From assembly GCA_956465555.1 (NCBI GenBank), contig OY101126.1:476501-540500 (forward strand): DNA of 64,000 nt, read 5' to 3'. Both the position numbers and the translations under genes were made by a program. The notes below the pieces were generated by a model that was given only the letters and a program-made list of their open reading frames with translations, did not search any database and was not told where the DNA came from. This stretch comes from Nitzschia sp. pyKryTriq1 (Eukaryota > Bacillariophyta > Bacillariophyceae > Bacillariales > Bacillariaceae). Below are positions 19,065-37,509 of the stretch, in pieces. The first letter of the stretch is position 1; each line of letters begins with the position of its first letter.

Positions 19065-19593
19065 CGTTGCTTTGCTTCTTGGGTTGCTGGATATGGCAAA
19101 CAAAGATGGATAATGAGATGGCAGTCAACAGGTGGCAGTTTGATGGATGCAATACGATGCTCAATCATCAATCATGATGTTTATGTTGAGGTGTTTGGCG
19201 GGGAGGGAGTGTTCGCGCTCATCCCTCTGATGCTCTCGAACCTCTCATCTTTTTCTGAGAAGAAGAATATCAGTTTTCAGTTTTGGTGCGCGTGGAGGTT
19301 GGACTTCCGGGTTGGCCGGCGCGCGTCGTCACTCAGGCGACTGATCCGATCATCTTCGATCTTCCCATTCGTCATCGCGCACACGTCACGGTTCGGATCA
19401 ACCAAGACTTGCCGCCAACGCGAAGCCCGGAAAAGGACCTAAAGCAAGAACAACCCAACCAAAGGACTTCTCTCGCCTATGATGCACAATTACACGAGCT
19501 ACCACCACTTGCCTCATCGATTATTCTCATCAAACCACATATCTAACTACTACAGTACTACCTACTAATAGAAGGCTGCGTCCAACAAAGACA
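19065..19593. other. divergent intergenic region
   Basis: Shared 5' region of the unknown secretory gene and the two-domain glycosyltransferase gene. No clear motif beyond AT-rich runs near the second gene. Confidence 0.4.
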
Positions 19594-21753
19594 ATGAAAG
19601 TCAACGCAGCTAAAAACATTCCTTTTCACCACAAAGACAGTGATGTTGAGCTTTGTTGCGACAAACAACATGCCCCCAACACTACACAGCATCATCGTCC
19701 AGAATGTCACCATCATCGATTCCTTTGTCCTTCCATCAACGCCTGTGGACTGAGTCTGATTCTTCTCTTATTAATGACCCAACTCAATGTCTTGATGTTG
19801 GTTTGTGTCATGGACTCGCCGGTACTGGTAGTCGAGCGGCGCGTCCCCGTCTCGTGGAAGGATCATTATTTGTGGCCATTCTTCTCGTCGAGTAAGACAA
19901 CAGACACGGAACCGAAAGTAGAATTTGTTCAAGAAAATCACCAACGATTACAAGAACTCGTTCAAGTCGATTCGATCCTATCGTGGACCAAAACAAGGGA
20001 TGAGTTCTTTCAGGAAATCAATATCACAGCCGTCTTAACGAACGATGTGCTTCCAATCACCAGACTTCACGGACGTCCCAAAGAGGAAAAACTAGAAATC
20101 TGGAGAAAGAAGGAAGGCAACTTTTACCTGTGGGAAGGGAATATTTGCTTTGCAGCTAGAAACTTTTTACAAGCGGGAGCCATCAAACCTCATGTCTTGT
20201 TTACCTATTTGAATGAAAACAGAGGCGCCTTAGGGATGGACGTCAAAAATCGCACGATACAATGGGATCACCTGGCGACACACTGGACCAAGTGGGGATG
20301 CACAGATGAAGAAATCTGGGCCTATCTGGATCATCCGCTTACCAAAGCCGTCTTTACGACACAACATCAGTCGTATTCGCATCCCAAAGTTCATTCTATA
20401 CCGCTTGGGGTGGCGCCGTCCATCAAGGATATGATTGCGAGTGCAGTGCAGCTTCCACCGAAGGAACGAACACAACTCTTGATGATCAATGATAATGGGT
20501 GGAGGTTTCGAGCCGCAGTTAGCCAATATGTCATGAATACCTTTGCTCGACACCGCCCGGATCTTTCGCCCTTGCGGAATACCTACTCGCAAGCGCCTGG
20601 TTCTGCCCAGAAGTACATCGAAGAACTTCGTATCTCCAAGTTCATTCTAGCACCTTCTGGATTAGGATGGGATTGCTATCGAATTTGGGAGGCCTTGTAT
20701 ATGGGCGTCATTCCAATTGTCGAAACCTATGAGAGGCCTGTCGATGCTTGGCGTGAAACACTTGAAGATCTACCAGTTCTTTGGGTCGAACACTACGAAG
20801 ACGTGACACCCGAGCTCCTTGAAACGGAATACGTCAATATTGCTGCTAGAGCCAAAGACTACAACTATGAAAAGTTGACGAAGCAATGGTGGATTGACTA
20901 CATCAAATCCTATTTCGCCGACGACCTCGCTGTATTGCAGCACACAAGAGTGAATGAGCCTGAGGAGTTTTCACAAAGTGAACACAGCATCGAGACAAGT
21001 AAATCAGCATCTCATCTTTTTGGATACTACACGGATAATTCTACGGCCATTCCTCGCATTCTGCATTTTGTCTATGTCACCCCTGGCTTGCCTGAAGAGC
21101 AAGAGGCACTTCCTTCTGATGTTCAACACAACATTCATGAGTGGCAGCGTCTTCATCCCGATTGGATGGTCGTTCTCTGGGACAATGCCGCAGTGCATCG
21201 AGAATTCCCTGATCTCGTTGAATTGGTCAAGCCCATCCCAATCATGAGCTGGATCGCCGATTTGCTGCGCTATCATGTCTTGGAGAAGTATGGAGGAGTC
21301 TACTTGGATGCGGACATTGTGCCGATTCGATCTTTAGATCCACTACGCAATCGCTTTCCGGACTTTACGGCCTGTGAGAAGCCAGAAAGTAATGGGCCTC
21401 GCGTAAGTGAGTCCGAATATACCGTCCAGTATTGCGAATTGGTCAATATTGGTGTGATTGGAGTACCTCCCCACCATCCGGCCTTGAAGGAGATCATGGA
21501 AGTGACCGTGGCTAACACACGCGCCAAACTCTTCCACTTTCCAAATGACGGGGGGCCGTTCGAATTGACAACGTCGGGTCCCCCCATTTGGAGCAAATCT
21601 GCCAAGAAGTTTGACATGACACTCTTGCATCCCAGTCTCTTTTATCCGTGCAACTGGAATGCCAAGGATAAATGTCGGCTCGAACTATGGAAGGATCAAC
21701 CGCATGTCTACGGAATGCATGAGTGGAAAATGAGTTGGTTCTACACAAAGTAA
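19594..21753 (+). CDS. two-domain glycosyltransferase: exostosin-like plus GT32
   Basis: 719 aa, single exon. The cytosolic N-terminus is His-rich, with a membrane anchor at about 50-72 (GLSLILLLLMTQLNVLMLVC). Residues about 130-440 resemble exostosin/GT47-type domains: VFTTQHQSYSHPKVHSIPLG, ISKFILAPSGLGWDCYRIWE and ALYMGVIPIVE. Residues about 480-719 are a GT32 (OCH1-like, Gly_transf_sug) domain: IPRILHFVYVTPGLP, MSWIADLLRYHVLEKYGG and the DxD site VYLDADIVP (Asp572, Asp574), ending in YGMHEWKMSWF. Each half would be a complete enzyme in other lineages, so one Golgi chain could add two sugars in sequence, or one half could only bind. The donors are not readable from the sequence. Confidence 0.8.
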   Translation: MKVNAAKNIPFHHKDSDVELCCDKQHAPNTTQHHRPECHHHRFLCPSINACGLSLILLLLMTQLNVLMLVCVMDSPVLVVERRVPVSWKDHYLWPFFSSSKTTDTEPKVEFVQENHQRLQELVQVDSILSWTKTRDEFFQEINITAVLTNDVLPITRLHGRPKEEKLEIWRKKEGNFYLWEGNICFAARNFLQAGAIKPHVLFTYLNENRGALGMDVKNRTIQWDHLATHWTKWGCTDEEIWAYLDHPLTKAVFTTQHQSYSHPKVHSIPLGVAPSIKDMIASAVQLPPKERTQLLMINDNGWRFRAAVSQYVMNTFARHRPDLSPLRNTYSQAPGSAQKYIEELRISKFILAPSGLGWDCYRIWEALYMGVIPIVETYERPVDAWRETLEDLPVLWVEHYEDVTPELLETEYVNIAARAKDYNYEKLTKQWWIDYIKSYFADDLAVLQHTRVNEPEEFSQSEHSIETSKSASHLFGYYTDNSTAIPRILHFVYVTPGLPEEQEALPSDVQHNIHEWQRLHPDWMVVLWDNAAVHREFPDLVELVKPIPIMSWIADLLRYHVLEKYGGVYLDADIVPIRSLDPLRNRFPDFTACEKPESNGPRVSESEYTVQYCELVNIGVIGVPPHHPALKEIMEVTVANTRAKLFHFPNDGGPFELTTSGPPIWSKSAKKFDMTLLHPSLFYPCNWNAKDKCRLELWKDQPHVYGMHEWKMSWFYTK

Positions 21754-29032: not shown

Positions 29033-30604
29033 GAAATAATTCTAAAACAAGAAACTCATTTAATTGATACATACTCGTATAGTCTAGTAGTATACAATCA
29101 CTGTGCTGTTAAAAGTTGAAATAGTCCACGAGAAAGCTTACGTGCCTTTACGTATTGACGTAGTTCAGCTTCCAGAGCGCGAGCCAGCAAACCAAACGAG
29201 CCAGAAATAAGCAAAAGAGGAGTTGCCAGATTATGCTGCGGACTGAACGGACATACGAGTACACAACAATGACAACAGCAGAACGACAGCAAGATTCATT
29301 CATTCTTCAGCACTGCTGGTGGGGTGGTTCTCTTGCTTGTATCATAATATGTTCAAATAACTACCAGCAACGGACAGACGCGAGATGCATTCACGAGCGG
29401 AGCACGACTCAGGACGCACGATTACTAAAACTCCAAGAGTATCTGAGAAGTGCCAAGATGATGAAAGAAAGTAAAAGACATCTTTCGAAACAAGAATCAG
29501 AACGATAGAGGTGATGGACGAGATCATTTCATTATTAAAAGTAGAGACTAAAAGCTCATAATTTCTAAGAAGCACAACTAAGCATCTAAAACCAGAAATT
29601 GTCAATCACTAGCCCGTACCAGGCATACCAGTACGGTACAGTACCAGTACCAGTACTGTACGCATGTGTTCCAGTACTTGTGCCGGTAGAATACCGGTCG
29701 CTTGACATTGGAATTTGCTTTTGGAACGATCAAGTGGCTCGACACTCGACAGCCAGACAGACGCACGGAGACAGAAGGAAGGCGCGAGTCGAGCGCAGCG
29801 CCAACCAAACCAAGAACCAAGAACCCTCAACTCTTTCGGCTAGACCGATGAAATGTAGTAGTAGCTTGTTATTAAATTTCGTGATTTTCTTCTTGTTCTT
29901 GTTGGGGCTTCTGGATGTTGTGGGTACAGCTCATTGATTGTTTTAATTCTGTTTTCGTCGGTGGCTGTCGTTAGTCTGGCTAGTCGTCGGTTGATTACTC
30001 CATTTCCTAGCTAGTAGTAGTACAGATCGAAATCAGTGGTTAAGGTAGTAGAGAGATGATGGGAGAGAGGAGGTTTTCGTTTGGGTACCAGTTACCAGTA
30101 TCATACATACCACATCAGAGGGAAGAAGTCGATGTAGTCCTTTACGTCTGGCCGGCGTTTCGCGTCGCCCGTTCGTGGAACCTTTCGCGGCGGGCCTCAC
30201 AAAAAAGCAAACATAAAAACGCATTATTCTCACTATGATACGTTCTGCGTACCACATACCTGCTTGCATCCGTCCTGCTGTCGGCGGGCGGGTCGGTCGT
30301 CGGTCATTGTTTGCTGTTGCTTATTCCGACGACTCCCTCCTCCTCGACGACGACGACGACGACGACTCGAGATATTCCATATGCATCGCTTATTTTGCGT
30401 AGTTTGAAAGTCGCTCCAGTTAGCTACAATACCAATACTGCTAGCTACTATAGCACAGTTTACAGTCAGTTCTACCAATAGTAGACAGACAGTGAAATTG
30501 CAAGCTTGTGAAATTTCAAAAGCAACCCTGATCCACTACTCCAAAGCTGCTAGCGTTTATAGTCTAGGTTACCGAGAAACGACAACAGCAGCAGCAGCAG
30601 CAAA
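29033..30604. other. intergenic, upstream of the mannosidase gene
   Basis: About 1.6 kb. A GTAC-rich cluster (AGTACGGTACAGTACCAG and on) is at 29630-29700 and a (GAC)n run at about 30346-30367. A minus-strand open stretch at 29098-29292 has no ATG and no recognised relative. The 5' UTR next to the ATG at 30605 is (CAG)n-like. Confidence 0.4.
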
Positions 30605-33600
30605 ATGCCCATCGAACAACTTCGATCCCGGGCAAATGCAGTGAACAACAGCAGCAATAGTGACCTGTTTGGCGGTGCCGACAACAATGAAGGCTTTGAC
30701 CCCAAAGACAAGGAAGCCTTGAATGCACGGTTGAGTGATCGCCGCCGCCAACGTCGAGAACAGCGACTCAAGAAACAAAGTCCGCCGTCGTCAGCGTCGT
30801 CGACGTTTCAGCAGCAGCAACAACAACTGGGCGGTAGTACTACACCCAATACGACCAAAAAGATGATGGCAAATAACCGGCGAAGGAACTTGTTGCAACA
30901 GCGGAGTAGTAGGCAAAGCACGAATCGGTTGATCTACGGATTGATTGTCTGTATTTTGATCGTCATTTGGTTGATGGGATTTCTGTTTCTCGCCAATCGA
31001 ACCCACACAACTTTGGATCCCCACAAAAATAGCAAGGGTCCCTTCCAACAACTGCGGCAACGTTTCAGTGGGGCAGTGGCAAGCCAGCTGCAAGCGATTC
31101 ACCAACAACAAAAGAACAGCAACAACAACAACAGCCCATCATCATCAGCTATTTCAGTAGTCAAGGGCGATCCCAATCAAGTCATTGATATGCGAGAGTT
31201 GAATGCTCATCTCAAGTTTGACAACGAAAAAGGTGGGGCTTGGACGCAAGGATGGGACGTGGAGCCGGTGCCGATTGGCAGCCATGAAAAGCCACTTCGT
31301 ATCTTTGTCGTTCCACATTCCCACTGCGATCCCGGTTGGATCAAAACCTTTGATGACTACTTTCAATCACAAACCAAGCAAATCTTGTCGACCGTCATTG
31401 AGGCTCTGGACCAACATCCCAAACGAAAGTTCATTTGGGCAGAAATTTCCTATTTTGAATGGTGGTGGAGGGAACAAAAGACAGAAACGCAGGAGGTGGT
31501 GCGTCGACTCTTGGAAAATGGGCAATTTGAATTTGTCACGGGGGGTTGGGTGCAGCCGGATGAAGCGAACACTCAGTTGTATGCCATGGAAATTCAACTG
31601 CAAGAAGGACACGACTTTATTCGGAATACCTTTGGGGAAAAGCATATTCCAAAATATGGATGGTCCATTGATCCTTTCGGATACAGTCCTACCATGGCAT
31701 ACCTCTTGAAAAAGTATGACTTTCGGGCCATGTTGATCCAGCGCGTGCACTATCGTATTAAAAAGGAATTGGCAAAATCCAAACACTTGGAATTCATGTG
31801 GCGACAAACCTGGGACAAGACGGGGGAATACGACATCTTTACCCACGTTATGCCCTTTTATTCCTACGATGTTCCCCATACGTGTGGTCCGAATCCTGCC
31901 ATATGCTGTCAGTTTGACTTTGCCCGGATTCGAGGGGCGACAGAGTTTGTTGGAACTTGTCCTTGGGGCAAGCAGCCCAGCAAGATTCATGATCTCAATG
32001 TGGAAGAACGCGCCATGCTTCTGTTGGATCAATATCGCAAAAAAGCCAATCTGTATCAAAGCAATGTTGTCATTGCGCCATTGGGAGATGACTTTCGATA
32101 TCGAACGCGCCAAGAGGCGGACTTTCAGTTTGAAAATTATCAACGCATCTTTGACTACATCAACGAGAAGGTAGAAGGCGTTGAAATTTCCTTTGGGACC
32201 TTGTCGGAATACTTTCAAGCAGCCATGGGGACCTTTACTCCACCTCTACTCAAGGGCTCCTTCTTTACCTATGCCGATCGTGATGAAGATTATTGGTCGG
32301 GATATTTTACGTCTCGTATCTTTGACAAGGCCTTGGATCGGCAACTGGAACGAGTTCTTTATGCGGCGTCCAGTCTAGGGGCCGACAAGCTGGAACTGCA
32401 AGAGGCCCGCCGAGCGTTGTCTTTATTCCAACATCACGACGGTGTCACGGGAACCGCCAAGACTCATGTTGTTGCAGACTATGCCGCTAAAATCCACAAG
32501 GCAATTCGGCTATGCCAAGATTGGATCATTCAAAAATTCGAAAAGACCAAGAAGGCAAGTGACGGATCATCATCGTCATCTTCGTTGACGAATTTGAAAC
32601 CATGCTGGCAGTCGGACGCTCCTCGAGGATTAAGTTCCAATTTGTGTGGCGAGTCCGGAGATGTGTTGGTCTACAATCCTCTCGGGACAGATCAATTCTG
32701 TGGAGACGTCAAAGTCCCCGGCTGGACCTCGGTCAAGGCAACTTTGCCGTGTGAAATACCGGGTTCTGTACCCGATTCAAAGGCGGGAATACAATTTGAT
32801 CCTCATACGGGTTTCATGACACATCCGGTCAAGGAAGAATGGATGGTGTGGAAGGTCACGATGGGTGGTGCCTACTTGTTCTTTCCTGGGAAATTGACAG
32901 ACTACGAGGAAGATCATTTTGAAATCGAGCAAGGAGGCTACGTCGTAAAAACCAAGCATTGGAAGCGTACCGTCGTGGAAAAGAGTGAGACGCTCAATGG
33001 AGTAACGGCGACAGCCATTGACTTTGTGTATGAAACATTCCTTCAAAACCCCAATGAAGAATGGTTTGTCCGATTCACGGGCAGTCAGATTTTGAACGAG
33101 GGCGTCTTTCATACCGACTTGAATGGCTACAATTTCGATACACATCACTTTCGTTCCGACATGCCGATTCAATCTCAAGTCTTTCCCATGCCGACTCTGG
33201 CTTCGATTGAAGATGAGCATCAGCGCTTAACCATTCTGAGTGAACATGCCCAGGGTACGGCTTCACTTGAAGAGGGGTCGATTGATGTCTGGTTGGACCG
33301 TCGTCTCGCCCAAGATGATGAGCGTGGGTTGGGACAAGGGGTCATGGATAATGTTCCGACACGCACTCGCCTTCGTGTGGTATTGGAAACGGAAGGATAC
33401 CAACATGCCAACCCGGAGTTTGAAATCACCAGCTTTTGCAAACTCATGTGGAAGCAACTCAACCACCCTCTCGAAATGTTTGGGCGATTGAAGGGTGGCG
33501 AATTGTTGCCGATTGCTGATCTGAAACCGGACGAACCACACAAAAGCATCAATAAGGTGAGCAAGGCGTTCTCTTCTGACAAGTACATTATCCCTCCTGT

Positions 33601-34644
33601 CTACATGGTCTATAAGCGAGTCGATTATTTGAAAGAGGCTATCGAGTCGCTTCTCCATTCGGACTTTCCGCGAGATCGTATTCCAATCATAATTTCCCAC
33701 GATGGACATATCGATGCCATGACAGACTATGTGGAGAGTATCAAATCCGATTTTCATGTCATTCAACTATTCCATCCTCATGCGTGTTCGGAACATCCCA
33801 ATTCCTTTCCAGGAGATGACCCAACGTTGAATAAAAACTACCAAGGAGATGAATATGGCAATCCGCGAGACGGAAAGATCACTTGTTGCAAGCATCATTT
33901 TACGTGGTTAATGAATCAAGCCTTTGAGTTGGACGAAGTGAAGGACGCGGATGGGTTCCTCTTCCTGGAGGAAGACTATATTGTGGCACCGACTATTTAC
34001 GAGACGATTGAAGCAGGTCTCGACTATCTGGACAAGAGTGGGAAGCGGGATCACTTCTTTGGCTTGACATTGGACTCCACAGAAGGCTACTCGTACACCC
34101 CCCCCAGTTTCAAAGGATGGATAGAGAAACGATTTGTGACGGGGCCCATGGTACTTCGACGAGATATGTTTCAGAAAATCAAGGACAATGCAAAGGAGTA
34201 TTGCACTTTTGATGAGTACAATTGGTAAGTCATTGAAGACCGGAAATGAGAACCGGCAGCGCTTCGAAGCACAATTTTTGTTGTCTAATCCGCATGTCAT
34301 TCGTGTTCAGGGACTGGTCTATTGTTCATTTGATGGGTCGATCCTTGGTTCCTCATCTCGTTTTGGTCCCCCGCCAACTTCAAGTGGCCCACATTGGCTT
34401 GGAAGGTGGATTGCACGAGGATAGTATCAACAAACAAAAACGAGAAAAGATGGAAAAGATGAAGGCCCTGAAACCCTTCCACGCAAAGCCAACTCCGGGG
34501 ACGATTGTGCAATTTCAGCATCCAATAAGAGAACATGAACATGGATTCGGTGGCTGGGGGCATCCGGCCGACCAGCACCATTGCATGGAGCTCTTTGGAC
34601 AAACACCAAGCTCAACGTGGTCTGAGGTGCTTCATCTTCAGTAG
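30605..34644 (+). CDS. Golgi alpha-mannosidase II fused to GlcNAc-transferase II
   Basis: Two exons, 30605-34224 and 34311-34644, give 1317 aa; the 86-bp intron splits the Trp codon of EYNW/DWS. Layout: Gln/Asn/Arg-rich cytosolic tail; membrane anchor at about 108-131; GH38 domain from about 230, with zinc ligands His240/Asp242 region in VVPHSHCDPGW, nucleophile Asp356 in WSIDPFGYSPT and HHDGVTGT at 610-617; late GH38 motif RRLAQDDERGLGQGV. From about 990 the sequence becomes a GT16 (MGAT2) domain: VYMVYKRVDYLKEAIESL, IIISHDGHIDAM, PNSFPGDDP, ITCCKHHFTWL, FLFLEEDYIVAP, TFDEYNWDWSIVHL and GGWGHPADQHHC. The last part of the usual mannosidase C-terminal region seems replaced by GT16. Man II trims two mannoses and GnT II then adds GlcNAc to the exposed arm, so the two steps sit on one chain. 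Confidence 0.92.
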
Positions 34645-35504: not shown

Positions 35505-36045
35505 GGTTGTTTCTTGAATGGATGGGTTGGGGTGTAATACAATATAATGCAGTTTGGTACGTAGTTGATGACGGAAGGTCGAAGATTTGCCCAGTGCCCG
35601 TCAAAATAACATCATGGTCGCGAGCAGATGATACACAGCTAGTTCAACTTTTACTTCGTGTCTTTGAGTTCAACGCATCTTGGCGATCTCTGTTTTGTCA
35701 GACTGACCCCCCAGTCAAAAATGTTTCTACTCTGGTAATTTTGCCTATATTCACATTCGTGGTACTGTTTCAGGGGTGGTGTAAGGAAACCCGGAAATAG
35801 GTTAAAGGAACCCGGATACATCAAATGATGTCATGACGCGCCTCGAATTTTCGTGGTATTTGAATAATACGACTTCAATCGGTTTGCACGCTCTCAGCTT
35901 CGGGCGCAGCCATGAAAAATATTCCATAGCGGCACAAAGCAGTAAAACTGGACCATAAAATGGAACGAATGACGAATAGCACATCCTACCAAGACTACTC
36001 CATGGCAAAGAGTTTCAGTCTTACTGTTACTAGCACTTCGAAAGA
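35505..36045. other. divergent intergenic region
   Basis: Shared 5' region of the pentapeptide-repeat and MnmA genes. No clear motif or extra gene. Confidence 0.4.
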
Positions 36046-37509
36046 ATGATTCGGAGATGTAGTTCTGCTTCAGTAATGATAGCGAGGAGACAACCCCACC
36101 GAAGAAGAAGAATTGCCGTGGCAATGAGCGGCGGAGTCGACAGCTCTGTGGTGGCACATTTGTTGCGTCAAGAATTCCCAGATACAGAGCTTCTGGGGGT
36201 TCACATGTCCAACTGGGACTATCACACCGAAGACCACACTGATAGTAGTAGCAGTAGTAATGTATCATCCAAGTGCTGGGAACAGGATTGGAAGGACGCC
36301 AAGAACGCTGCGCAGCATGTGGGTATTCCAATTGTTCACACATCCTTTCAGGCGGACTACTGGAATTCAGTGTTTGAACCTTATGTGGATCAAATTGCAA
36401 AGCACAAGACACCGAATCCAGATGTGGACTGCAATCGATATATCAAGTTTGGAGTGCTCAAAGAATTCTTGTGGTCCAAGTACCAAATGGATACCTTGGC
36501 GACAGGGCACTACGCGCGATTGTGGGATCCAGGCCGGGATCACCCGAGGCCGGAATGCTTGCAAGAGATTTTGGATCAGGATCCATCGATCGACGCATTC
36601 TTGTCAAATTCGACTCCGACACTATTGGCGGCAAAAGATTTGAGCAAGGATCAATCATATTTTTTGAGTGGTGTTCCAGGAGATGCGTTATGCAATGTCT
36701 TGTTTCCCCTTGGCGACTATCTCAAGCAACCGCCCAGGCACGAAGTAGAAGAGGACGCCGATTCTTCTTCTTCGTTGCTGACAGTACGACAACTCGCCGT
36801 ACAAGCAAAGCTCCCCAATGCCCATAAACGCGATTCCATGGGTATTTGCTTTGTAGGTAAACGAAAGCATGGTGAGTTTGTCCAAGACTTTTTGGATCCT
36901 CCCAGGCAGGATGCGGTTGGTCAGTGTATCAATGTGGAAGATGGTAGTATCATTACCACATTTGATCCCAATACCCAACCATCTTTACTCTATGCGACGA
37001 TTGGTCAAGGTGCGAAAATTGGGGGCGCCTCTCAAAAATGGTTTGTCGTGGACAAGCCAGATGCTACAACCTTGGTCTTGTGCCCTGGCACGCATCATCC
37101 CGCACTGTACTCGGATAGTTTTGTAGTGGATCGAATCCATTGGATGGCAGGAGAGGAACCACCCTTGCCGTTTGTGGCACAATGCCGGATACGCCATTTG
37201 CAGCCATTGGTGGATTGTGAGATTCGTCGTCGCCCTGGCGGTGCTCCAGGATACGAAATTGTCACTGTGAGACCCTTGAGAGGGATCGCGCCCGGTCAAG
37301 TGTGTGGGATTTACCTGCACGATTTAATTTGTTTGGGAGGTGGATCGATTACACAGCGTGGTGCAACGTATATGGATCTGCAAAAGTCGTTACCTGAACA
37401 GTTGCATCCAGCTGGACGAAACGATCTTTCTACATGCATACTCAAAGAGGCTGGATTAGTCTTAGAAAAGAATGCTACTTGCTCTTGTACCGGTATCCAT
37501 CGTAGTTAA
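36046..37509 (+). CDS. mnmA: tRNA-specific 2-thiouridylase (MnmA/TRMU), mitochondrial or plastid
   Basis: 487 aa. An Arg-rich N-terminus (MIRRCSSASVMIARRQPHRR) suggests import into mitochondria. The PP-loop SGGVDSS is at 28-34 and binds ATP. The first catalytic Cys is Cys128 in NPDVDCNRYIKFG; the second is Cys267 in SMGICFVG; DQSYFL is at 201-206. The central beta-barrel (LYATIGQGAKIGG, FVVDKPDATTLVL) and C-terminal domain (GQVCGIYLHDLICLGGGSI) are complete. The enzyme takes persulfide sulfur and makes the 2-thio group of the wobble uridine of tRNA-Lys, -Glu and -Gln. Compared with bacterial enzymes of about 370 aa, the extra length lies in the presequence, two Ser/Asp-rich loops and a short tail. 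Its stop is 64 bp from the SECIS-like hairpin of the convergent gene. Confidence 0.95.
   Translation: MIRRCSSASVMIARRQPHRRRRIAVAMSGGVDSSVVAHLLRQEFPDTELLGVHMSNWDYHTEDHTDSSSSSNVSSKCWEQDWKDAKNAAQHVGIPIVHTSFQADYWNSVFEPYVDQIAKHKTPNPDVDCNRYIKFGVLKEFLWSKYQMDTLATGHYARLWDPGRDHPRPECLQEILDQDPSIDAFLSNSTPTLLAAKDLSKDQSYFLSGVPGDALCNVLFPLGDYLKQPPRHEVEEDADSSSSLLTVRQLAVQAKLPNAHKRDSMGICFVGKRKHGEFVQDFLDPPRQDAVGQCINVEDGSIITTFDPNTQPSLLYATIGQGAKIGGASQKWFVVDKPDATTLVLCPGTHHPALYSDSFVVDRIHWMAGEEPPLPFVAQCRIRHLQPLVDCEIRRRPGGAPGYEIVTVRPLRGIAPGQVCGIYLHDLICLGGGSITQRGATYMDLQKSLPEQLHPAGRNDLSTCILKEAGLVLEKNATCSCTGIHRS

Follow-up and report, generated by a model that had tools for sequence, protein, structure and literature searches.

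Organization of the fusion gene

The window, which is the whole stretch of DNA analysed here (64,000 nucleotides of Nitzschia sp. pyKryTriq1), lies on contig C12 of an assembly of 40.65 Mb in 20 contigs. On its plus strand, one gene encodes a GH38 mannosidase II (Man II) followed by a GT16 transferase (MGAT2, GnT II). The first-pass annotation had placed this gene at 30605–34644 and these limits are right, with the ATG at 30605 and the stop codon TAG, which ends the Man II/GnT II frame, at 34642–34644; another in-frame TAG is located 5′ of the ATG, at 30560. As read in the window, ORF 30605–34228 (+) runs from the ATG through GH38 and then GT16 without any stop. The final stretch of the gene appears as a separate entry in the ORF list because of a putative 86-bp GT..AG intron at 34225–34310, which was called because its removal restores the GT16 motif YNWDW. 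After splicing of this one predicted intron, the product has 1,317 aa. The GC content at the third position is alike in the two parts of the gene (0.517 for GH38 and 0.514 for GT16 exon 1). The features are:

30605–34644, plus strand: whole gene from start codon to stop codon, with its single intron; putative bifunctional Man II/GnT II of 1,317 aa
30938–30994, plus strand: hydrophobic segment, residues 112–130 (Kyte-Doolittle)
31301–32275, plus strand: GH38 catalytic domain, residues 233–557 (Pfam and alignment to Drosophila GMII)
32291–32536, plus strand: alpha-mannosidase middle domain, residues 563–644 (Pfam)
32861–33325, plus strand: Glyco_hydro_38C, residues 753–907 (Pfam)
33485–33589, plus strand: linker of 35 residues (961–995), from the GH38 end HPLEMFG to the GT16 start; these limits were drawn by us, and the Pfam MGAT2 match already begins at residue 991
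33575–34584, plus strand: GT16/MGAT2 domain, residues 991–1298, with the intron inside (Pfam)
34225–34310, plus strand: putative GT..AG intron of 86 bp within the GT16 domain (predicted from the sequence)

Domains and conserved residues

Four Pfam domains above the cut-off, in a continuous frame, place mannosidase II and GT16 on the same chain, as had been claimed. Three belong to the mannosidase, namely Glyco_hydro_38N (residues 233–557, E 1.1e-78), Alpha-mann_mid (563–644, E 5.7e-20) and Glyco_hydro_38C (753–907, E 9e-9), all above the gathering cut-offs. The fourth is MGAT2 (991–1298, E 5.1e-43), which scored 148 bits against a cut-off of 27 and was covered from 24 to 349 of its 349 positions, up to the profile end. 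The linker has no further Pfam domain. Residues 112–130 reach 2.92 in the 19-residue Kyte-Doolittle window and are the sole segment above 1.6 in the protein. This segment, preceded by a basic N-terminal stretch, is predicted to be a type II membrane anchor, in the layout of a Golgi protein.

In the alignment to Drosophila GMII, residues H240, D242, D356, D496 and H611 of the fusion correspond to H90, D92, D204, D341 and H471 of the fly enzyme, which we take to be the zinc ligands, the nucleophile and the acid/base, and the set HDDDH is complete (5/5). The alignment to human MGAT2 (5vcm, whose residue numbering presumably has an offset of 28) matched E1123, D1124, D1208 and H1234 to E260, D261, D347 and H374, which we assume to be the metal and base positions.

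These residues were followed in 120 rows (the query and P0002–P0120, from the best 120 of 1,983 relatives). All five GH38 residues are present in 98 of the 120; in 21, at least one of the five is gapped, mostly through shortened gene calls; one row, the unfused P0081, has S at GMII position 90. The GT16 positions vary, with N at D261 in four and Y at H374 in three of the 120 listed rows, some of which are perhaps truncated or misaligned. Many of the listed rows are gapped at the GT16 positions, as the domain is absent or the gene call is short. Loss of the GH38 site in fused members that have an unfused neighbour was considered and is not supported: no fused row among the 120 carries a substitution there.

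Relatives carrying the fusion

The search of other genomes for a GH38 gene with a GT16 tail, proposed in the first-pass annotation, found the fusion to be widespread. Among the best 120 of 1,983 relatives, which include the exon-1 protein of the window (P0001), GT16 (PF05060) occurs on a GH38-type chain in 88, P0001 included, and is absent in 32; two of the 88, P0093 and P0115, have PF05060 without PF01074. The same division into 88 and 32 came out of a phmmer search that used the GT16 domain as query. Fused homologues were found in Nitzschia sp. Nitz4 (73% identity), N. inconspicua (67%), Cylindrotheca fusiformis (62%), Seminavis robusta (58%) and Mayamaea pseudoterrestris (56%), and also as an MMETSP transcript model of 1,275 aa (55%). 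Both ends of the linker could be measured in 73 of the 120 listed rows, and in these it has 26–135 residues (median 61), lengths that point to flexible tethers.

In Cylindrotheca fusiformis (P0026/P0070) and in a member of the Bacillariaceae (P0030/P0092), a fused and an unfused GH38 gene have consecutive gene models, and Seminavis P0028 (fused) and P0075 (unfused GH38) come from contigs of equal size. Likewise, the fused P0068, on a contig of 15,049 bp, and P0114, an unfused GH38 with ordinary motifs, come from contigs of equal size; in P0068 the motifs near the GH38 site are altered (HCDVGRHRTF, AVDGTGGHS), and the five key positions still align. Near-identical stretches were seen by eye in some of these four pairs, a pattern that suggests tandem duplication, perhaps with gene conversion too. 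In the metagenome protein P0077 (1,720 aa), which is fused, a partial sulfotransferase domain (1012–1131) lies between GH38 and MGAT2, and the protein is a fusion of three domains or else an artefact of gene calling; P0088, which is close to P0077, has no such stretch between the domains.

C-terminal end of the mannosidase

It had also been suggested that the transferase takes the place of the usual mannosidase II end here. By sequence, the end is shorter: the match to Drosophila GMII spans residues 183–643 and 828–929 of the fusion, and the final aligned residue, 929, corresponds to 898 of 1045 in the fly, so that 31 residues remain before the linker versus 147 in the fly chain. The GH38 end is shorter by about 115 residues in this alignment, and the full-length C-terminal region of Drosophila GMII, which is not a requirement of the family, is not found in the fusion. 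The mannosidase is accordingly classed with the diatom form and not as an exact GMII.

The replacement itself is doubtful. Half of the GT16-less listed relatives (16/32) are equally short, ending 2–30 residues past the HPLExxG point (7 residues in C. fusiformis P0070, 8 in Seminavis P0075 and 12 in P0114), which argues that the transferase is not simply a substitute for a lost mannosidase end. Ten of the 32 have tails of 78–183 residues with no GT16 match, and the exact HPLExxG pattern is missing in the other six. C-terminal tails without a GT16 match are present in P0096, P0105 and P0107 (by Pfam also for P0096 and P0107). Metagenome gene calls may break at introns, which makes the status without GT16 uncertain there, and some GT16-less relatives are probably broken gene calls; P0089, counted among them, has an end that by eye resembles a GT16 start. 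The unfused copies may themselves derive from fused ones, so that the end may have been lost before or after the fusion.

Suggested origin and possible splitting of the fusion

Free-standing GT16 proteins with a hydrophobic segment of their own were found in Epithemia clementina (P0160) and Attheya (P0169), as well as in P0140, P0164, P0165, P0188 and P0217. The GH38 (P0096) and GT16 proteins (P0160 and P0179) of Epithemia clementina belong to the same families as the fusion and are close to the fused proteins. Unlike the fusion, they are encoded on different contigs (760,818, 889,264 and 675,126 bp, respectively); P0160 carries its own hydrophobic anchor segment and P0179 begins within GT16. 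GH38 without the transferase is also present in Amphora. In addition, the unfused GH38 P0078 and the free GT16 P0140 both come from contigs of 7,163 bp and are perhaps neighbours.

A first GH38 tree took in the 101 of the 120 listed rows that fill at least 85% of the GH38 columns, together with Drosophila GMII. A quick GT16 tree used 89 domains, picked for good coverage and unambiguous status among the 187 proteins with a match; it placed the Epithemia-type group among the fused ones and gave Attheya no firm position. More careful trees were then made from hand-picked rows. In the GT16 tree of 36 rows, from which P0166 (a possible partial model), P0071 and the free-standing P0169 and P0140 were left out, among others, the Epithemia-type group again fell inside the fused group. 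In the GH38 tree of 33 rows, whose root rests on one very long branch, the Epithemia- and Amphora-type GH38 without GT16 also fell inside the fused group. None of the 200 bootstraps of either tree (0%) set all fused rows apart by a single branch, with AU p values of 0.035 for GT16 and 0.084 for GH38; the second does not reach 0.05, and both are suggestive only, as the tests were made after the pattern had been seen in the earlier trees and the groups were named afterwards.

Both trees join the unfused Epithemia-type group in one branch with the fused proteins around Mayamaea; this pattern suggests a single old fusion, later split in that lineage. To judge from these placements, the fusion seems to be of old date among diatoms, and one lineage has probably split it again. 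The fuller history, in which the fusion arose once, early in diatoms, and later divided in the Epithemia lineage to give two genes, with the freed GT16 regaining an anchor, is the one we lean towards, with some reserve. If it is true, the Epithemia split would be a natural test of whether the covalent coupling of Man II and GnT II alters glycan processing.

Genome context

The assembly, whose completeness is unstated, has two MGAT2 matches, and the fusion is the only one above the cut-off; the other is a sub-threshold match on contig C4, within a GnT I match. There are three GH38N matches, one being the fusion and the others on C3 and C7. Over their longest stretches, these two loci share about 28% identity with the fusion and, on this measure, are not close copies of it. 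GnT I is encoded on C4, GH47 matches are found on C16 and C1, and the assembly also has three GH20 and 11 GT10 matches. The capacity to make complex-type N-glycans, read earlier from the fusion, is upheld in part: the assembly encodes GnT I and GH47 beside the fusion, but also has the three GH20 matches, and the predicted gene set allows complex-type processing.

Elsewhere in the window, the chain encoded at 19483–21750 (+) combines an RXYLT1_C/exostosin-like region (371–450) with a Gly_transf_sug DXD sugar-binding region (544–622), and is possibly a second glycosyltransferase fusion. The gene at 36034–37506 (+) encodes tRNA_Me_trans and its C-terminal barrel, and presumably is tRNA 2-thiouridylase-like.

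Proposed function and alternative explanations

We propose that the gene very probably encodes a Golgi type II bifunctional Man II/GnT II which carries out two successive steps of N-glycan processing. That the two enzymes belong to successive steps agrees with the first-pass annotation, both families having been identified with the key positions of each kept. After the action of GnT I, the luminal GH38 domain would take off the two outer mannoses; GT16, tethered to it, would next put GlcNAc on the freed alpha-1,6 arm. The anchor would hold both domains in what is presumed to be the Golgi, and the fusion would keep both steps together at equal dose. Substrate channelling between the tethered domains, which the first-pass annotation took the fusion to imply, is a conjecture. 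Both activities and their order of action are inferred from the sequence of the protein.

The variable length of the linkers among the listed rows, and the lack of a further Pfam domain in the one found here, would suit a locus giving two products, in which a transcript or translation boundary, or proteolysis of the linker, yields separate enzymes. Yet no stop, evident intron or second hydrophobic segment lies between the domains, and 88 of the 120 listed relatives have both domains joined, one of them the MMETSP transcript model, so that we regard separate products as quite improbable. It is somewhat less improbable, though still unlikely, that a single domain is active and the other serves as a scaffold. 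The unfused GH38 beside the fused gene in some diatoms (P0026/P0070, P0030/P0092 and Seminavis P0028/P0075) and the altered motifs around the GH38 site of the fused P0068 fit this idea. Against it, the other two GH38 loci of the assembly are only distantly similar, a second GT16 above the cut-off is absent from it, and the fusion retains 5/5 GH38 and 4/4 GT16 positions. As for an assembly or gene-model artefact joining two genes, which had been named at the outset, the chance is negligible: an identical join occurs in assemblies of other species, at about 48–77% identity, which rules out chance or mis-assembly, and the same architecture is already in print (PMC12507850).

A bifunctional Man II/GnT II therefore is our preferred reading, and on this view two steps of N-glycan processing may be coupled within a single chain in the Golgi of diatoms. 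For recombinant glycoproteins from diatoms, one gene edit would then remove or change both steps, with the separate genes of the Epithemia lineage as a comparison group. This work shows the published diatom fusion in another species, as the only GT16 above the cut-off in its assembly and widespread in its relatives.

Comparison with known systems

The first-pass annotation was aware of no standard N-glycan pathway in which one chain holds both enzymes, but such a chain has been published for Phaeodactylum tricornutum and other diatoms. The fusion architecture is not new, and the gene is a further case of a published diatom kind. A 2025 review (PMC12507850) describes a bifunctional Man II/GnT II of P. 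tricornutum, a type II membrane protein with the human GnT II catalytic residues, and predicts homologues in Fragilariopsis cylindrus, N. inconspicua, S. robusta, 'Bacillariophyceae sp.' and M. pseudoterrestris. According to the review, the diatom enzyme still awaits biochemical data, and P. tricornutum RNA-seq, for which Ovide 2018 is cited, suggests a single transcript; a term search of the main text of that paper (PMC6156597) gave no mannosidase, GnT, glycosyltransferase or N-glycosylation. Literature listings named no other report of the fusion. Passages of PMC7864949, PMC7773692, PMC7140410 and PMC9826595 mention Man II or GnT II and not the fusion; the first lists P. tricornutum Man II with a length of 1,498 aa and no domains other than GH38, and puts a question mark for Thalassiosira oceanica.

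Regarding the glycans, PMC7773692 reports that P. tricornutum GnT I is active in CHO Lec1 cells and that terminal GlcNAc was not detected in PNGase-released P. tricornutum glycans. The review cites a 2021 study for GlcNAc-terminated oligomannosides in P. tricornutum, and argues that hexosaminidases could strip terminal GlcNAc (PMC12507850).

The P. tricornutum Man II/GnT II, as described in PMC12507850, resembles the fusion in having GH38 towards the N-terminus, GT16 at the C-terminus, a type II anchor and the GnT II catalytic residues. Compared by description, the two are known to differ in length (1,453 aa versus 1,317 aa here) and species, and not in kind. Drosophila GMII (PDB 1qwn and others) shares the five matched positions H90, D92, D204, D341 and H471 with the fusion, but is without a transferase. 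Human MGAT2/GnT II (PDB 5vcm) aligned with 303 residues of the query (E 1.4e-22, 90–412 of 419), and the EED motif, YNWDW and the H positions are kept. The human enzyme is a separate chain with a membrane anchor of its own, whereas the GT16 domain described here is tethered to GH38.
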